From positions 191,673-255,672 of the forward strand of contig NZ_KI912097.1 in the NCBI RefSeq assembly GCF_000517025.1: a stretch of 64,000 nt of DNA. Direction: 5' to 3'. Below, in pieces: positions 6,387 to 15,527 of this stretch; positions within the stretch are counted from its first letter, which is position 1, and every line of letters begins with the position of its first letter. Source of the stretch: Halonatronum saccharophilum DSM 13868 (GTDB lineage Bacteria > Bacillota > Halanaerobiia > Halobacteroidales > Halobacteroidaceae). A program made the position numbers and the translations under genes. The notes under the pieces are model-generated. The model saw only the letters and a list, made by a program, of their open reading frames with translations. It ran no database searches and was not told the DNA's origin.

Positions 6387-6653
6387 CTGAGCTGTCTTAT
6401 CTCCACTATCCAACTTGTCTAAAATTTTATGAACACACTCACCACAAACCTCTCTTCCTTCATAGTTCAATGTATCTTCAGTGCTATTGCAGAATATACA
6501 TACTGGTTGATACTTTTTAAATATAATCTTTTCTCTATCTACATATATTTCTAATGGGTCTTTAATATTAATCCCTTATACACCTCTCAACTCTTTAGGT
6601 ATAACTATTCTACCTAAACTATCCACCTTTCTTACTATACCAGTTGATTTCAT
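6345..6653 (-). pseudogene. AbrB/SpoVT-family regulator broken by an in-frame stop
   Basis: The frame starts with ATG at 6653 after an AAGGAT ribosome binding site and reads MKSTGIVRKVDSLGRIVIPK, the swapped-hairpin DNA-binding fold of AbrB-type transition-state regulators. At 6578-6576 a TAA replaces the codon expected before GIN. Downstream, the same frame is intact for 77 more codons and contains two cysteine pairs (CIFC and CGEC) typical of clostridial AbrB relatives. The frame finally runs through the 42-bp palindrome. A single base change appears to have killed the gene recently. A sequencing error is the alternative. The family controls the onset of stationary phase and sporulation. 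Confidence 0.8.
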
Positions 6654-6669
6654 AATTTATCCTTCCTAA

Positions 6670-8682
6670 TTAAATATTAATATCCAAATCATCACCATTA
6701 ATTAAATCATCAAAATTTAAATCTTCCTCTATATCTTTAACTTTATTTTTAATCTTTTTCTTTGCTTTTTTATTAGGCTTATCTAAACTATCTTCTAACA
6801 ACTTCATCAAAGCCTTCTTCCTATCTCTCTTCTCAGAGACTTTAAATTTCCTAACCAAATCCTCCATCTGACTAGCTTCTATACTTAGAGATCCACTTGA
6901 AGCAGCAATCTGTTCTACCATAGAAGCATTATCTTGGGTACCTTGGTTTAAATCTTCTAATGCATCTTGAGTCTGTTCTATTGCCGCAGCCTGCTCATTA
7001 GTAGCATTTGTTATAGATGAGATCGATTCATAGACATTAGTACTATTCTCAACTATATCCTCTAAAGTATGACCAGTCTGATTTACTAATTTATTCCCCT
7101 CTTCAATCTTTTTAATAATATTAGTAATTAACTTAGATATCTCTGCTGCTGAAGTTGCTGTTCTCTCAGCTAAATTCCTTACCTCATCAGCAACCACTGC
7201 AAACCCTTTGCCATGTTCACTCGCTCTAGCAGCCTCTACTGCAGCATTTAAAGCTAATAAATTTGTTTGTGAAGCTATCTCATTTACTACTACAATTATC
7301 TCAGATATTTTCTGACTGTAGTCAGTTATATCATCCATAGCATGAATTGTATTTTTTACAACATTTGCCCCCTCTTTTACCGAATCCATTGTTTCTTCTG
7401 AAATTTCATTAGCACTCTGTGAATTATTAGCAACATTTTGCATAGAAGATGCTATTTCTTCAATAGTTGCTGAAATTTCCTCTAAAGTCGAAGCATTATT
7501 TTGAGTTCTATTTGATAATTCATCATTCCCTTGGGCCAACTCATCAGATGATGAAGAAATATTAATTGTCGTACTCTTTACCTTCCAGATTACTTCACTT
7601 AATGAATCGATTGTCTTATTTAAAGAATCGGCCATTCTACCAAATTCATCTATGCTCTTTACCTTGACTTTCTGGCTAAAATCACCTTCAGAGACCTTAG
7701 CTAAAACCTTATTGATATTATTTACTGTTTTAGAGACTGAACTTGTTGCTAAAAAGACTATTGTTAAAATGATTAAGAAGAAAACAATATAACTTTTTAG
7801 TATCTCATTTGAAATATCACTAATAATATAAGTCAATTCATCTTCTGGTACAATTAATACCATTGACCAATTGGCATTAGGTATTGGATGATAAAAAGCA
7901 TACCTTTCTATCCCTTGATAAAAATAAGTGCCTGATCCTATCTCACCTCGAACCATTCTTTGTGCTAAAGTATTTAAATTGTTATCTAGACCACCTTCAC
8001 TATCTAATAAGTTAATCTCCATTGACAATGTCGGGTGAGCAATTACGGTTCCACTATTATCTATTATATAACCTATACCACTCTCTCCCAAACCAAAGTT
8101 TCCTATTAAATTTTTAAGACCTTCTAAGGGTACCTCTCCTGCTAAGGTAGCTAAATAATTATCCTCCCCATCAACTATAGGAATAAATATTTTAAATATA
8201 TACTCTCCATTGATTTTAGATATTAAAGGGGAAGTAATTAAAGCCTCTTTATCCGCCCTAACCTTTTGAAAATAATTGTTATCGCTATAATCATAAACCT
8301 TAGCTGTCTGTGTCTCAATAGCTTGTCCGTTATTATCTATCAAACTTATAGACTGAAAATCATAATCTAAATCCCCTTGCCTAATCAAGGTTAGTAATTC
8401 TCTCGTATTATTTTGATCCTGACGCAAAACCTCTTCTAGTCCAAGCATATTTGCAATAACTTGCAATTCATTTACTTTGCCTTCTAGCCATAAATTAACA
8501 AAATCAGCGTTATTTGCAACCATCTGCATTCCATTATTCTCAACAACCCCCACTATATTCTCAGAAATCAAATCATTATTCCTATCCATCACCCAAAATG
8601 TAATTATTACAAATGGAACCAAAATAAATATCAATAACTTGTTTCTTAAGGTTATTCTTCTCTTTAAAAATTCTAACACCAT
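6670..8682 (-). CDS. Methyl-accepting chemotaxis protein with Cache sensor domain
   Basis: This receptor has about 670 residues. In order it has TM1 (about 16-33), an extracytoplasmic double-Cache-like sensor (about 35-285), TM2 (about 290-315), a HAMP linker and a cytoplasmic signalling domain (about 380-640). The hairpin tip [20 protein letters not shown] is canonical and contacts CheA and CheW; the next residues read SEHGKGF, where most receptors have GEHGKGF. The tail is lysine-rich, then acidic. The ATG at 8682 is preferred over the GTG at 8688, which is part of the AGGAGGTG ribosome binding site. Decayed cheR lies just upstream. The ligand cannot be told from sequence; Cache domains usually bind small organic molecules. 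Confidence 0.93.
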
Positions 8683-8765
8683 TAGCACCTCCTATAAGGT
8701 CTTTCAAATTATTTTTTTATAAATCGTTGGCCCTACTAATTTCCAATCACCACCTTTAATAAAAT

Positions 8766-8925
8766 TTATAAATTCCGAGTTACCCAAGAATAACTCCAAA
8801 TTCTAAATTCTCTGCTACTACTCTCTTCCTTTAATTTTTTTTGAAATCTCATTAGCTATAAATTCAAAATGATGTCTTTCTCTAAAAAACCCAGTGACAT
8901 TTGTAGTTATAAAGTTTATAAAGAA
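8766..8925 (-). pseudogene. cheR (chemotaxis methyltransferase) remnant
   Basis: On the minus strand one frame reads INFITTNVTGFFRERHHFEF then IANEISKKIKGRE and stops. A second frame continues with EFRIWSYSWVTR. Together these match the end of the helical N-terminal domain and the RIWS entry strand of CheR, which methylates chemoreceptors. The next catalytic motif (CSTGEEPYS in the family) is destroyed. Stops and at least one frameshift separate the pieces, and nothing recognisable remains of either end. The region 8940-9060 may hold more decayed sequence. The adjacent chemoreceptor suggests a former receptor-cheR unit. Confidence 0.78.
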
Positions 8926-9062: not shown

Positions 9063-9215
9063 TTATTTAGTTAATATCATATAGTCTAAAATTTTTTTAT
9101 CAAGAATTCTACTTAACTTTAAAACTTCTTTATCCAAAAGATCACCGTTTTGAGACTTCTTTAACATCTTACTTCTTAAATAATCAATATCTTTAGTCAA
9201 TTTAGTTCCTTTCAT
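9063..9215 (-). CDS. Spo0E-like aspartyl phosphatase (50 residues)
   Basis: This short gene encodes a 50-residue protein beginning MKGTKLTKDIDYLRSKM. Its pattern of leucines and the segment VLKLSRILDKKILDY match the Spo0E family, whose signature is SQELD. Spo0E proteins remove phosphate from Spo0A~P and delay sporulation. Here Gln-Glu of the signature is Arg-Ile, so activity is not certain. AAGGAAGTGG lies nine bases before the ATG. Upstream are four heptamer repeats with an 11-bp period followed by a possible -10 site, suggesting activation by a SARP-type regulator; the SARP-like gene is next upstream. A second Spo0E-like gene lies at 14.7-14.9 kb. Confidence 0.72.
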   Translation of the reverse strand: MKGTKLTKDIDYLRSKMLKKSQNGDLLDKEVLKLSRILDKKILDYMILTK

Positions 9216-9271
9216 AAATATAACCACTTCCTTTCAGAAAAAGTAATATTTTATTGATTGACCTTAAATAT

Positions 9272-9327
9272 ATTTTAACATTTCTAACTTATAAAAGACC
9301 TACAAATTACTTACAATACACTTACAA
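9272..9327 (-). promoter_or_regulatory. SARP-type direct heptamer repeats and promoter
   Basis: On the plus strand CTTATAA, CCTACAA, CTTACAA and CTTACAA begin at 9288, 9299, 9310 and 9321, an exact 11-bp period with 4-bp spacers. In transcription direction (minus) they are followed after ten bases by TAAAAT (9277-9272), a possible -10 site, and no good -35 is present. SARP regulators bind such heptamers just upstream of the -10. The promoter would drive the Spo0E-like gene. Confidence 0.65.
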
Positions 9328-9413
9328 ATTCAATTTTGTTCTATTTTTTATCTTTATTTTTTATTTTTGTCATTTTTCGACAATAAGCCTCTTTTTTCTC
9401 TTTCTCTAATAAT

Positions 9414-9441
9414 AAAAAACCAAGCCTGAGCTTGGTTTTTT
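9414..9441 (-). terminator. Rho-independent terminator
   Basis: AAAAAACCAAGC and GCTTGGTTTTTT flank a CTGA loop just after the SARP-like gene. Confidence 0.88.
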
Positions 9442-9455
9442 ATTTATTTAATGTA

Positions 9456-12400
9456 TTATTTTGTCAGGTTAATATAAAATTTCTTTATGTTTTCTCTAGG
9501 CTTTAGATTTAAATCATTAGCTAAAATTTCAACTAACTTATTATAAATTTTAACTGCCCTAGTTCTCATTCCAGTCTTTTCATAAGATTTCATCTTATAT
9601 AAATAGGCATCCTCAAAATAATTATCTACTTTAATAGCTTTATCAGCCAACTCAATAACTTTATCATATTTCTTTATAGAATAGTAATAGTCTAAAGATA
9701 TATTAATTATATCTAAATAAATCAATTCTAATCTATCTTTCTCTTTTATAATGGATTCTTGGTATAATATACTAGGCAAAAAACCATCATTATAAAGATC
9801 AATTGCTTCTTCATAAAATTTAATAGATATATATATATCATCTGTTCGTCTTCCTATTTTAACTAACTCTTTGAATTTTTGAACATCATAATCTACTAAA
9901 AAACTATTACTAACCCTATAGGTTGTACCTTTTTTAACTATAAAAACTGGATCTTCTTTTTTACCTCTATTGGGTTCTAGTACTTTATTTAAAGTGCTTA
10001 AAGCTACATAAAAATTACGTTCAGCAATTTCATAATCCTTGTCAGGCCAAAGCTGATTACATAATATATCTTTACAAACAGCATTACCATAATTAGCTAA
10101 TAATATCATTAGTAGCTCCTTAGACTTCTTTCTAGTCCATTTTTCTTCTAAAATCTTCTTATCACCGGCATATACCTCTAAACCACCAAAAGTTTTAACT
10201 CTAAGAGAATACCCAGGGTGGTAAGAAAGTCCCTCTAATCCAAATGACTTTAAAAAATCACTTACATAATCAACTTCTATCCCCTCTTTTTTTGCCTTTA
10301 GGAGCATTCGAAAAATAACACTTTGGTCTTTTATAAATATAGGATTCTTCTTTATTATAATATACTCGGCTGATTTTAAACTAGCTAACTTCAAAGCAGA
10401 TTTGATACTATTTTTGAACCTCTTATTATCTTCTAACTGATAATAAACAGCAGATAGACCAATATTACTACAAATTAAAAGCCTTTTATTATCTACCTTT
10501 TCAAAGTAACCTATAGATTTTTTAAAAGCATTAATTGCTCCTTTAAATTCCTCTTTAAAACAATAAGCTTTTCCTAAACGGTTAAGAAGTATTCCTTTAC
10601 TATAAACATCTCCTTTCTTCTCAACTTCTATAAGCCCCTTTTGGGCATAAGCTATGGCCTTATCATATTCCCCGCAAAGTATATTCATAGATACTGTATT
10701 AATTATAACCTGTAACTTTGGTCCAGAAACTGAAAATGGACATTCCTTAAACCTATCTATAAAATTCATTACTAAAGAATCTTTTATATATTTTTTTTCT
10801 ATTGATTTAGAAGAAAAATTAATTAGTTGAAGATAGTAGTTAGCAAATAATTTAACTATTCCATCTTCAAATTTAAATTTACTCCAGATATAAGCCTTAG
10901 CTTGATTATATTCTCCTCTTAGAAAGTAAATAATAACTGGAATAAAGAGAGTTCTAAAAAGTAATAAGTCATTAACCTTAACTTCTTCTAAGCCGCTATA
11001 TTTATATAAACTAAGGGCTTCATCAATCTTACCTCTTATAAAAAGATAATTAACTTTAATCTCATAGTATTTATTGGTTGATTGATCAATATTTTTTAAT
11101 ATCTGATCAATATTTTGGATCTTACCTTTTATGACCCCAACTATAGCCTGAAAATAAATAAAATTACATTCAGAGCATCTACCACAATTATAGTCTTTTA
11201 TACCTAAAGCATAATCTTCTGCTTTGCTTGAACCAAAAAAACAGTATAAACTTAATATTCTGCATTTTGGATAAATTAAGCTAGTACCATCTTCATAATT
11301 TTCAATTAACTTATCACCTTTATTATAAGCCCTTATTGCTTCATGATATCTTTTTTCTCCTCTTAAAATATCACCTTTGTAGATATAAAGTATAGGGTTA
11401 TTGTAATAAAGTTCTAAAGGTAAAGCATCTAAAGCTTTCGTCAATACCTTATTTTCTGACACTTCCATACATAAAGCACCTTGAGATTTTACTAACTCTA
11501 ATAGTTCTTTTTGATTTTTACTCTTAATTAAAGCATTGACCTTAGCTAGCAGATCATTATTTTTTTCATATATTCTAGCAACTCTTTTATATAAAACATT
11601 TAAATCATATGTTCTATTAGCTTCTTCTAATAAAAATTTTTTGAAAATCGGATGATATTTATATTTACCTTGATCATCTTCAGAAATAAAAACACCTTTA
11701 GCCTTTAGCTTATTTATTATAGCTTTAGAATTTTCTACTTCCATAAACTGATTACATATATCTATATTTAAATATTCTAAAACTGAAGTTTTATATAAAA
11801 AGTCTCTGTCTTCACCCTTTATACCCTCCATTATCTCGTACCCAAAGTAATCAAATATAAGTTCAAAGTCTAAACTTTCTGCAAGAATTATTTCTGACTC
11901 TAAACCTACATAAATCTTATCCCCAATAAAATCTAAAGCCAGTAACCATCCTTCAGTAAGTTCAAAGATTTCTTTTGATGTTTCTTCATCTAACTCAACC
12001 TTATATTGCTGTTTATACATCTCTTTTATTTGATCCTTATTTAATTTAAAATCTTTATCAGTTATTAACTGCACTTTTCTTTTAACTTTTAACCTTGAAA
12101 TAATAGGTAGATCAACCTTCATTCTAGATGATATTATTAAATGAAACTCATTAGGCATTACTCCAATAAAATAATTGAGCGAATCTAATATATCATTTTT
12201 GCCTATTATCTGATGAAAATCATCTAGAAGAAAAATTGTATCTTCTTTTAAGTTTGCTGATAATCTATTTATAAAATAATCAATTACATCTTCAATTTCA
12301 CCCTCTTTTTTCTTTATCTTAATAAGTAAAAAATTAAGTAAATCAATATCTTCTTTTTCTATAAAATCAAAACTAGACATCATACTTCTCCAAAAAAGTT

Positions 12401-12629
12401 CTAATCCCTTATCCTTAATCTTTAGATGATAGAAGTAATTGTTTTTAGAATGATACTTACTTAAAAAATAAGCTAGAGTAGTAGTCTTTCCAGACCCAGT
12501 CCTAGCTTCTACTATTGTTAATGGATATTTCATTACTCGATTATACTTAAATAACAAATTATTATTCTCCCAAAGATCTTCTTCTACACTCGGTAAAACA
12601 AGCTTCGGTTTCAAAATTATTTGATTCAT
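9456..12629 (-). CDS. Large STAND ATPase transcription regulator with SARP-like C-terminus
   Basis: The protein has 1057 residues. An N-terminal P-loop ATPase of the MalT/STAND type has Walker A EARTGSGKTT (41-50) and Walker B TIFLLDDFHQ (131-140). A long region of TPR-like helices follows. The C-terminus carries an OmpR-like winged helix (about 810-905, starting near RVKTFGGLEVYAGDKK) and a bacterial transcriptional activator (BTAD) helical domain (about 912-1055), the combination seen in SARP regulators. A cysteine cluster CGRCSEC near residue 480 could bind metal or sense redox. It is probably a signal-gated activator. Its own terminator separates it from the Spo0E-like gene, whose promoter holds SARP-style repeats, a likely target. 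The inducer is unknown. Confidence 0.85.
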   Translation of the reverse strand: MNQIILKPKLVLPSVEEDLWENNNLLFKYNRVMKYPLTIVEARTGSGKTTTLAYFLSKYHSKNNYFYHLKIKDKGLELFWRSMMSSFDFIEKEDIDLLNFLLIKIKKKEGEIEDVIDYFINRLSANLKEDTIFLLDDFHQIIGKNDILDSLNYFIGVMPNEFHLIISSRMKVDLPIISRLKVKRKVQLITDKDFKLNKDQIKEMYKQQYKVELDEETSKEIFELTEGWLLALDFIGDKIYVGLESEIILAESLDFELIFDYFGYEIMEGIKGEDRDFLYKTSVLEYLNIDICNQFMEVENSKAIINKLKAKGVFISEDDQGKYKYHPIFKKFLLEEANRTYDLNVLYKRVARIYEKNNDLLAKVNALIKSKNQKELLELVKSQGALCMEVSENKVLTKALDALPLELYYNNPILYIYKGDILRGEKRYHEAIRAYNKGDKLIENYEDGTSLIYPKCRILSLYCFFGSSKAEDYALGIKDYNCGRCSECNFIYFQAIVGVIKGKIQNIDQILKNIDQSTNKYYEIKVNYLFIRGKIDEALSLYKYSGLEEVKVNDLLLFRTLFIPVIIYFLRGEYNQAKAYIWSKFKFEDGIVKLFANYYLQLINFSSKSIEKKYIKDSLVMNFIDRFKECPFSVSGPKLQVIINTVSMNILCGEYDKAIAYAQKGLIEVEKKGDVYSKGILLNRLGKAYCFKEEFKGAINAFKKSIGYFEKVDNKRLLICSNIGLSAVYYQLEDNKRFKNSIKSALKLASLKSAEYIIIKKNPIFIKDQSVIFRMLLKAKKEGIEVDYVSDFLKSFGLEGLSYHPGYSLRVKTFGGLEVYAGDKKILEEKWTRKKSKELLMILLANYGNAVCKDILCNQLWPDKDYEIAERNFYVALSTLNKVLEPNRGKKEDPVFIVKKGTTYRVSNSFLVDYDVQKFKELVKIGRRTDDIYISIKFYEEAIDLYNDGFLPSILYQESIIKEKDRLELIYLDIINISLDYYYSIKKYDKVIELADKAIKVDNYFEDAYLYKMKSYEKTGMRTRAVKIYNKLVEILANDLNLKPRENIKKFYINLTK

Positions 12630-14731: not shown

Positions 14732-14920
14732 TTATAGATTAATAGGAAAATCTTCATCTTCAACATCATCAGCACTACTCATATATTCAAGAATTGCCTT
14801 ATCTAATTCTTTACTAACTTTTTGTAAATTATCATCTAATAAATTGTTTTTATTTTCATAAGCCATACTCACCATTCTCTTCTTTAATCTATTAATCTTT
14901 CTCTTTATTTGACTTTCCAT
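14732..14920 (-). CDS. Spo0E-like aspartyl phosphatase (62 residues)
   Basis: This small helical protein contains INRLKKRMVSMAYEN and SKELDKAILEYM, matching the Spo0E signature S-x-ELD and its preceding helix. Family members dephosphorylate Spo0A~P or related response regulators. The ATG at 14920 follows AAGGAAGGTGA at good distance; the GTG at 14929 belongs to that ribosome binding site. Its position at the head of the c-di-GMP genes suggests a link between sporulation control and c-di-GMP signalling, which is inference. It keeps the SxELD motif better than the paralog at 9.1 kb. Confidence 0.78.
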   Translation of the reverse strand: MESQIKRKINRLKKRMVSMAYENKNNLLDDNLQKVSKELDKAILEYMSSADDVEDEDFPINL

Positions 14921-14997
14921 ATTAATCACCTTCCTTTATATATAATCTCTTGCTTCATAAATATTTATAAAATTCTTTTTTAAATCTAATTATCAAT

Positions 14998-15149: not shown

Positions 15150-15527
15150 ATGACAAATTTAAGAGATCTTTATAAGTGTCAAGTATGTGGACATGTGGTA
15201 GAGATAGTGCACAAGGGCCAACCAACTTTAGTTTGTTGTGACGAGAAGATGAATAAACTTGAGGAACAGACTGAAGATGCTACTATCGAAAAGCATGTTC
15301 CAGTAGTTGAAGAGATAGACGGTGGAATTGAAGTTACAGTTGGGTCTACTGAACACCCAATGACTGAAAAACATTATATCCAATTTATCGAGGTTTTAAC
15401 TTCCGATAAGGTACTTAGAGCAGAGCTAAAGCCTGGAGATAAGCCAACTGCAAGCTTTAATGTGAACAAAAATAAAGTTGAAAAAGTTAGAGAGTACTGT
15501 AATCTCCACAATTTATGGCGAGTATAA
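15150..15527 (+). CDS. dfx: Desulfoferrodoxin (class I superoxide reductase)
   Basis: The protein has 125 residues. The N-terminal desulforedoxin domain binds Fe(Cys)4 through C10, C13, C29 and C30. The C-terminal domain carries the catalytic iron ligands H49, H69, H75, H120 and C117 in EKHVPV, EHPMTEKH and CNLHN. Glu48 and Lys49-equivalent residues near the site follow the family pattern. The enzyme reduces superoxide to hydrogen peroxide in the cytoplasm without making oxygen, typical of anaerobes. It is a single-gene plus-strand unit with an AAAGGAGTGA ribosome binding site and a strong shared terminator. The upstream region is AT-rich with a possible dyad operator. Confidence 0.96.
   Translation: MTNLRDLYKCQVCGHVVEIVHKGQPTLVCCDEKMNKLEEQTEDATIEKHVPVVEEIDGGIEVTVGSTEHPMTEKHYIQFIEVLTSDKVLRAELKPGDKPTASFNVNKNKVEKVREYCNLHNLWRV

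Follow-up and report, generated by a model that had tools for sequence, protein, structure and literature searches.

Can a SARP-type activator control a sporulation phosphatase in an endospore-forming anaerobe? The question is raised by a 64,000-nucleotide stretch of the Halonatronum saccharophilum DSM 13868 genome, referred to here as the window, in which a run of direct repeats lies between the gene of a large SARP-like regulator and a small Spo0E-like gene. SARPs have been studied as activators of actinobacterial antibiotic clusters. To our knowledge, no SARP control of Spo0E has been described in Bacillus subtilis or Clostridioides difficile, and a literature search for papers on both gave none. 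Based on the analysis described below, we conclude that the repeats are probably the operator of an activator-dependent promoter that is bound by the neighbouring regulator.

The original prediction described four heptamers exactly 11 bp apart and a possible -10 element, TAAAAT, ten bases past the last of them; both were found as described, the -10 being in addition TG-extended. The heptamers CTTATAA, CCTACAA, CTTACAA and CTTACAA start at plus-strand positions 9288, 9299, 9310 and 9321, and the run of four 8-mers from position 9287 (ACTTATAA ACCTACAA ACTTACAA ACTTACAA) has a period-11 score of 30 out of 32, the strongest period-11 run in the window. None of 150 first-order Markov shuffles of the window reached this score (mean maximum 25.9, SD 0.68); when periods 6 to 20 were compared in the real window, only period 7 gave an equally high one. 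The minus-strand sequence leading to the Spo0E-like gene is TTTGTAAGTGT ATTGTAAGTAA TTTGTAGGTCT TTTATAAGTTA GAAATGT TAAAAT. A TTGACA-like -35 is absent (best match, two of six positions), and from this layout transcription is expected to start near position 9265. The last repeat lies 10 bp from the -10 by the heptamer register and 7 bp when counted after the 11-mer, a difference of 1-2 bp from the published SARP figure of 8 bp. The promoter thus combines direct repeats at 11 bp, a 3' repeat at about the SARP distance from the -10 and a poor -35, which is how SARP promoters are defined (repeats 11 or 22 bp apart). Because a terminator hairpin lies between the regulator gene and the operator, the Spo0E-like gene forms a separate transcription unit with its own promoter. 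No such repeats were found upstream of the window's own regulator gene. The coordinates of all features are given in Table 1.

Table 1. Features of the regulator-operator-Spo0E locus, in window coordinates
Feature	Position	Strand	Remarks
Regulator: MalT-type STAND ATPase, TPR repeats, C-terminal SARP domain (winged helix + BTAD)	9456..12629	-	1057 aa
Terminator hairpin in the regulator/operator interval	9411..9444		Scored on the plus strand; T-run on both strands
Presumed Spo0A-box consensus, TTGTCGAA	9376..9383	-	About 50 bp upstream of repeat 1
Operator repeat 1, TTTGTAAGTGT	9318..9328	-	Ungapped alignment with sites of other genomes
Operator repeat 2, ATTGTAAGTAA	9307..9317	-	Most conserved unit, consensus ATTGTAAGTnA; site alignment
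Operator repeat 3, TTTGTAGGTCT	9296..9306	-	Covers the -35 position
Operator repeat 4, TTTATAAGTTA	9285..9295	-	TTAGAAAG/TTAGATAG in relatives, less repeat-like
Extended -10, TGTTAAAAT	9272..9280	-	TAAAAT at plus 9272-9277, TG before
Spo0E-like gene	9063..9227	-	54 aa from GTG, 50 aa from ATG at 9215; PF09388, 1.2e-7
cheR remnant, between Spo0E-like and chemoreceptor genes	8710..8922	-	tblastn 1.8e-6 / 5.5e-7 to CheR of G005 / G003
Chemoreceptor gene (dCache-HAMP-MCP)	6670..8688	-	Likely ancestral operon member

The upstream neighbour had been described as a 1057-residue STAND regulator with SARP-like and BTAD domains, and Pfam, fold and profile comparisons all agree with this description. Residues 16-415 match the MalT profile (E 1.1e-58), the NCBIfam MalT model matches residues 7-441 (3e-46, below its full-length cut-off), and the P-loop G-x-G-K is invariant, as in a MalT-type ATPase; the middle of the protein consists of TPR repeats. 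For the last 256 residues, the structure was predicted with a pLDDT of 95, and the top fold matches of this model, AfsR (1.1e-9) and EmbR (6.4e-9), extend over the whole domain. A sequence profile of the SARP domain also matched AfsR, whereas no solved structure was matched by a profile limited to the winged helix and the first part of the BTAD domain. The BTAD domain (Pfam match, 7.1e-10) is the only one found in the genome. The order of an OmpR-type winged helix followed by BTAD is that of a SARP, but the domain occupies residues about 808-1057 of 1057 and not the N-terminus, where it stands in AfsR; we therefore claim a SARP domain in a different architecture. Judged by sequence and predicted structure, the regulator is a hybrid of a MalT-type sensor and an AfsR/EmbR-type output domain at the C-terminus. 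A literature search for MalT/BTAD in Clostridium gave no papers.

Behind the promoter, the Spo0E-like gene had been taken to be the only gene. A 50-residue PF09388 protein is indeed encoded there, a member of the family by score (32.1 bits versus a cut-off of 23) and by its S-x-x-L-D motif, with AAAGGAAGTGG preceding the ATG at 9215, but a chemoreceptor gene follows, separated from it by a decayed cheR. The layout with this remnant matches the intact spo0E-cheR-receptor order in the relatives G003 and G005. When regulator homologs were sought in 60 relatives, a close full-length copy being one above 500 bits, seven genomes of the order, the own genome included, were found to carry one. Five of these seven (G000, G003, G005, G011 and G012) have an ortholog of the chemoreceptor (E about 1e-60), always in the regulator neighbourhood, and it is absent from genomes without the regulator. 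The chemoreceptor gene probably once shared an operon with the Spo0E-like gene, as it does in relatives, and in view of its regular neighbourhood and of the gene order preserved by the remnant, the target of the operator is best seen as a Spo0E-chemoreceptor unit. Such a unit fits findings in B. subtilis and C. difficile, where Spo0E proteins influence motility as well as sporulation (PMC11115286).

Three further observations concern the surroundings of this unit. At 6411-6653 on the minus strand lies an AbrB-like transition-state regulator gene with one in-frame stop codon, about 60% identical to the copies beside the G003 and G005 regulators. A second Spo0E-like gene (14732-14929, minus strand), with no operator found upstream, heads a run of a PAS-GGDEF-HD gene and a GGDEF gene leading into the regulator. 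In G003 and G005, second place in the operon is taken by a gene for a protein of 215-218 aa with no confident Pfam match (L071:13543-14190, plus strand; L073:5147-5803, minus strand).

Putatively, the Spo0E-like protein dephosphorylates Spo0A~P. A serious possibility, if not a probable one, is that the operator is SARP-bound but that Spo0A is not the main partner of the Spo0E-like protein, which would instead serve a chemosensory or motility pathway, for example through a CheY-type or other partner. The present or former cheR and chemoreceptor genes of the operon speak for this, as does the receptor being as regular a neighbour as Spo0E, yet the window's own Spo0E-like copy keeps S-x-x-L-D, and Spo0A is encoded in its genome, as in all 13 genomes of the order. 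The motility effect of Spo0E in B. subtilis and C. difficile is independent of Spo0A (PMC11115286), and the Spo0E-like versions of G001 and G012 are degenerate; against this stands the clustering of Spo0A boxes around the regulators. In the 6.1 kb of intergenic DNA surveyed around them there are five copies of the heptamer TGTCGAA versus 0.094 expected, the highest count among 180 permuted heptamers; the figure is to be read as suggestive, since the count was made after the first boxes had been noticed. We take the sequence upstream of repeat 1 to be such a box, through which Spo0A feedback on the circuit is plausible. Even if the protein acts on Spo0A, the genome contains seven Spo0E-like genes, so the effect of the operator-linked copy may be small.

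The identity of the protein that binds the repeats was addressed by their distribution. PhoB and PhoP boxes are also 11-bp direct repeats in a similar promoter position, and geometry alone cannot separate them from SARP sites; the repeats could thus be bound by another regulator of the OmpR/PhoB winged-helix class, the adjoining SARP gene being incidental. We consider this improbable given where the operators occur. Among the 13 genomes of the order compared, the seven with a close full-length regulator all have a full-length operator, and the six lacking such a regulator have none (one-sided exact probability 1/1716, the genomes being related). The stronger point is the contrast between sister species inside two genera, g4 (G003 and G005 versus G007) and g7 (G011 versus G009). 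Most sites also lie in or near a regulator cluster. In relatives the regulator is typically followed, often after a terminator, by the operator; the gene behind this is Spo0E-like, belongs to a receptor operon or encodes the next regulator paralog. Finally, a regulator of phosphate genes would predict further sites in the own genome. A profile from the eight non-own sites ranked the own site first in the whole 2.88-Mb genome (E 3.9e-4; next, 0.087), and with a model from all sites the own operator was still the sole good match, so that the proposed genome-wide search returned one operator and no second one. The 64-bp model was needed here because a two-heptamer pattern is uninformative at two mismatches (46 matches versus 36 for the reversed control). 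With one BTAD domain found and one operator, the genome appears to pair one regulator with one promoter, and most likely the regulator activates that of the Spo0E-like gene alone.

The operator is conserved in detail. The 64-bp operator-promoter, with a fixed spacing to the extended -10 and no -35, recurs ungapped in relatives, next to regulator orthologs in G001, G003, G005, G011 and G012; conservation in relatives, on which the original prediction depended, was confirmed by the same repeats in the same -10 register beside regulator orthologs in six other genomes. Nine sites align without gaps over 64 positions; TGTAAGT of repeat 2 is invariant among them, and the distance to the -10 is constant. 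An extended -10 (TG one base before the -10) is present in 15 of the 17 sites with the common layout and a consensus -35 in none; the G001 site has no -10 in register. A first model, from whose training G002 was left out, found sites new to training before rubredoxin in G002 (E 7.8e-8), before a regulator in G012 (1.8e-4), before rubredoxin-desulfoferrodoxin in G003 (1.7e-4) and beside a hemerythrin gene in G005 (4.8e-5), and further new sites in G003. With leave-one-genome-out matrices, in which the tested genome was left out (for either g4 species, both), a true site ranked first in the sequence searched for each genome except G003, where the top rank went to a new operator-like site (L156:11250-11313) just upstream of a rubrerythrin gene (10733-11224, minus strand). 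A search of 38 other genomes of the class found no full-length operator, and no convincing one was found with distant full-length regulator homologs in other families of the class. A functionless tandem repeat born of chance or slippage was rejected on this conservation and is very improbable, for although the genome is AT-rich with many weak repeats and one period-7 run in the window scores equally high, sequence, spacing and position of the repeats are conserved across genera and the units are degenerate copies, unlike slippage products.

The genes behind the operator vary more than the operator itself. A search before orthologs of the Spo0E-like gene had been proposed; the repeats lie before such a gene in G003 and G005 and, where the gene is weak or degenerate, in G012 and G001. 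In G002, rubredoxin stands behind the operator and the Spo0E-like gene directly behind the second regulator, and G011 lacks a Spo0E-like gene altogether. The gene behind the operator is above the Pfam cut-off in G000, G003 and G005 and below it in G012, and in G001 it is a degenerate 56-aa version that has lost the key Asp and has no Pfam match. Going by these sequences, Spo0E is not an invariant target. G003 has four regulators, and its operators are also found before rubredoxin-desulfoferrodoxin, rubrerythrin and WrbA-like genes; hemerythrin or hemerythrin-receptor genes lie beside the regulator clusters of G002, G003, G005 and G012. A desulfoferrodoxin gene (15150-15527, plus strand) also stands beside the cluster in the window; it is behind an operator in G002 and G003, and none was found before the window's copy. 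SARP-type control of a sporulation phosphatase, as originally proposed, is well supported by the comparison of operators and regulators, but the target is broader: the chemoreceptor belongs to it, and so do, in relatives, paralogs of the regulator and genes for oxygen defence. From the G003 operators and the hemerythrin and desulfoferrodoxin genes near the clusters, an oxygen or redox signal to the regulator is no more than a reasonable guess. Rather unlikely as a whole, if attractive, is the wider scenario in which the MalT/AfsR hybrid STAND activator senses oxygen or oxidative stress and shifts cells from sporulation to escape and defence, through the Spo0E-like brake, the chemoreceptor and, in multi-copy species, superoxide reductase, rubredoxin and rubrerythrin, with Spo0A feedback via its boxes.

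The mode of activation is suggested by the position of the repeats. If the -10 hexamer is taken to span -12 to -7, repeats 3 and 4 cover about -41 to -20, and repeats 1 and 2, upstream of them, cover -63 to -42. In AfsR, two SARP protomers bind side by side to two 11-bp repeats at -40 to -19, the afs box, over the -35 and holding sigma region 4, and the inhibition that the STAND and TPR parts exert is lifted when ATP binds (PMC10936776). Since repeats 3 and 4 are placed almost as the afs box, activation most likely occurs by sigma adaptation, with the upstream repeats adding protomers, and the ATP-relieved inhibition of AfsR may serve as a model for the regulator's switch. In the scheme that we infer, from signal, SARP binding and activation to phosphatase target and direction of the sporulation effect, the MalT-like ATPase and TPR parts would detect a signal and free the C-terminal SARP domain with the help of ATP; protomers would then sit side by side on the 11-bp repeats, replacing the -35, and bring RNA polymerase to the extended -10. 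The output would be the Spo0E-like protein, probably together with the chemoreceptor encoded behind it. The former would reduce the Spo0A~P level and thereby restrain sporulation, the latter would favour taxis, and Spo0A could feed back through the upstream box.

If this model is correct, halophilic anaerobes that form endospores also use the SARP output domain and operator geometry, with a MalT-type sensor attached and a regulator of sporulation/motility as the target. The locus would provide a concrete case, with one operator and one promoter, for studying transcription activation by STAND proteins. It would also add a new candidate input to Spo0A in organisms whose control of sporulation has received little study. 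The closest known system is AfsR of Streptomyces coelicolor, a large SARP with STAND and TPR modules, which shares the SARP fold, direct 11-bp repeats where a good -35 would otherwise lie and a nearly equal position relative to the -10 (PMC10936776). However, AfsR carries its SARP domain at the N-terminus and the window's regulator at the C-terminus, behind a MalT-type sensor part; the afs box has two repeats, whereas here three strong repeats of TTGTAAG are joined by a fourth, weaker in relatives; and the setting here is a low-GC endospore-forming anaerobe with a Spo0E-like/chemoreceptor target. Escherichia coli MalT shares the N-terminal STAND ATPase and the TPR repeats but ends in a LuxR-type helix-turn-helix instead of a SARP domain. 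EmbR of Mycobacterium tuberculosis has the same winged helix and BTAD fold, combined with a phosphopeptide-binding FHA domain and without a STAND/TPR part. On the target side, the Spo0E-like protein resembles Spo0E of B. subtilis and C. difficile in being a small PF09388 protein.
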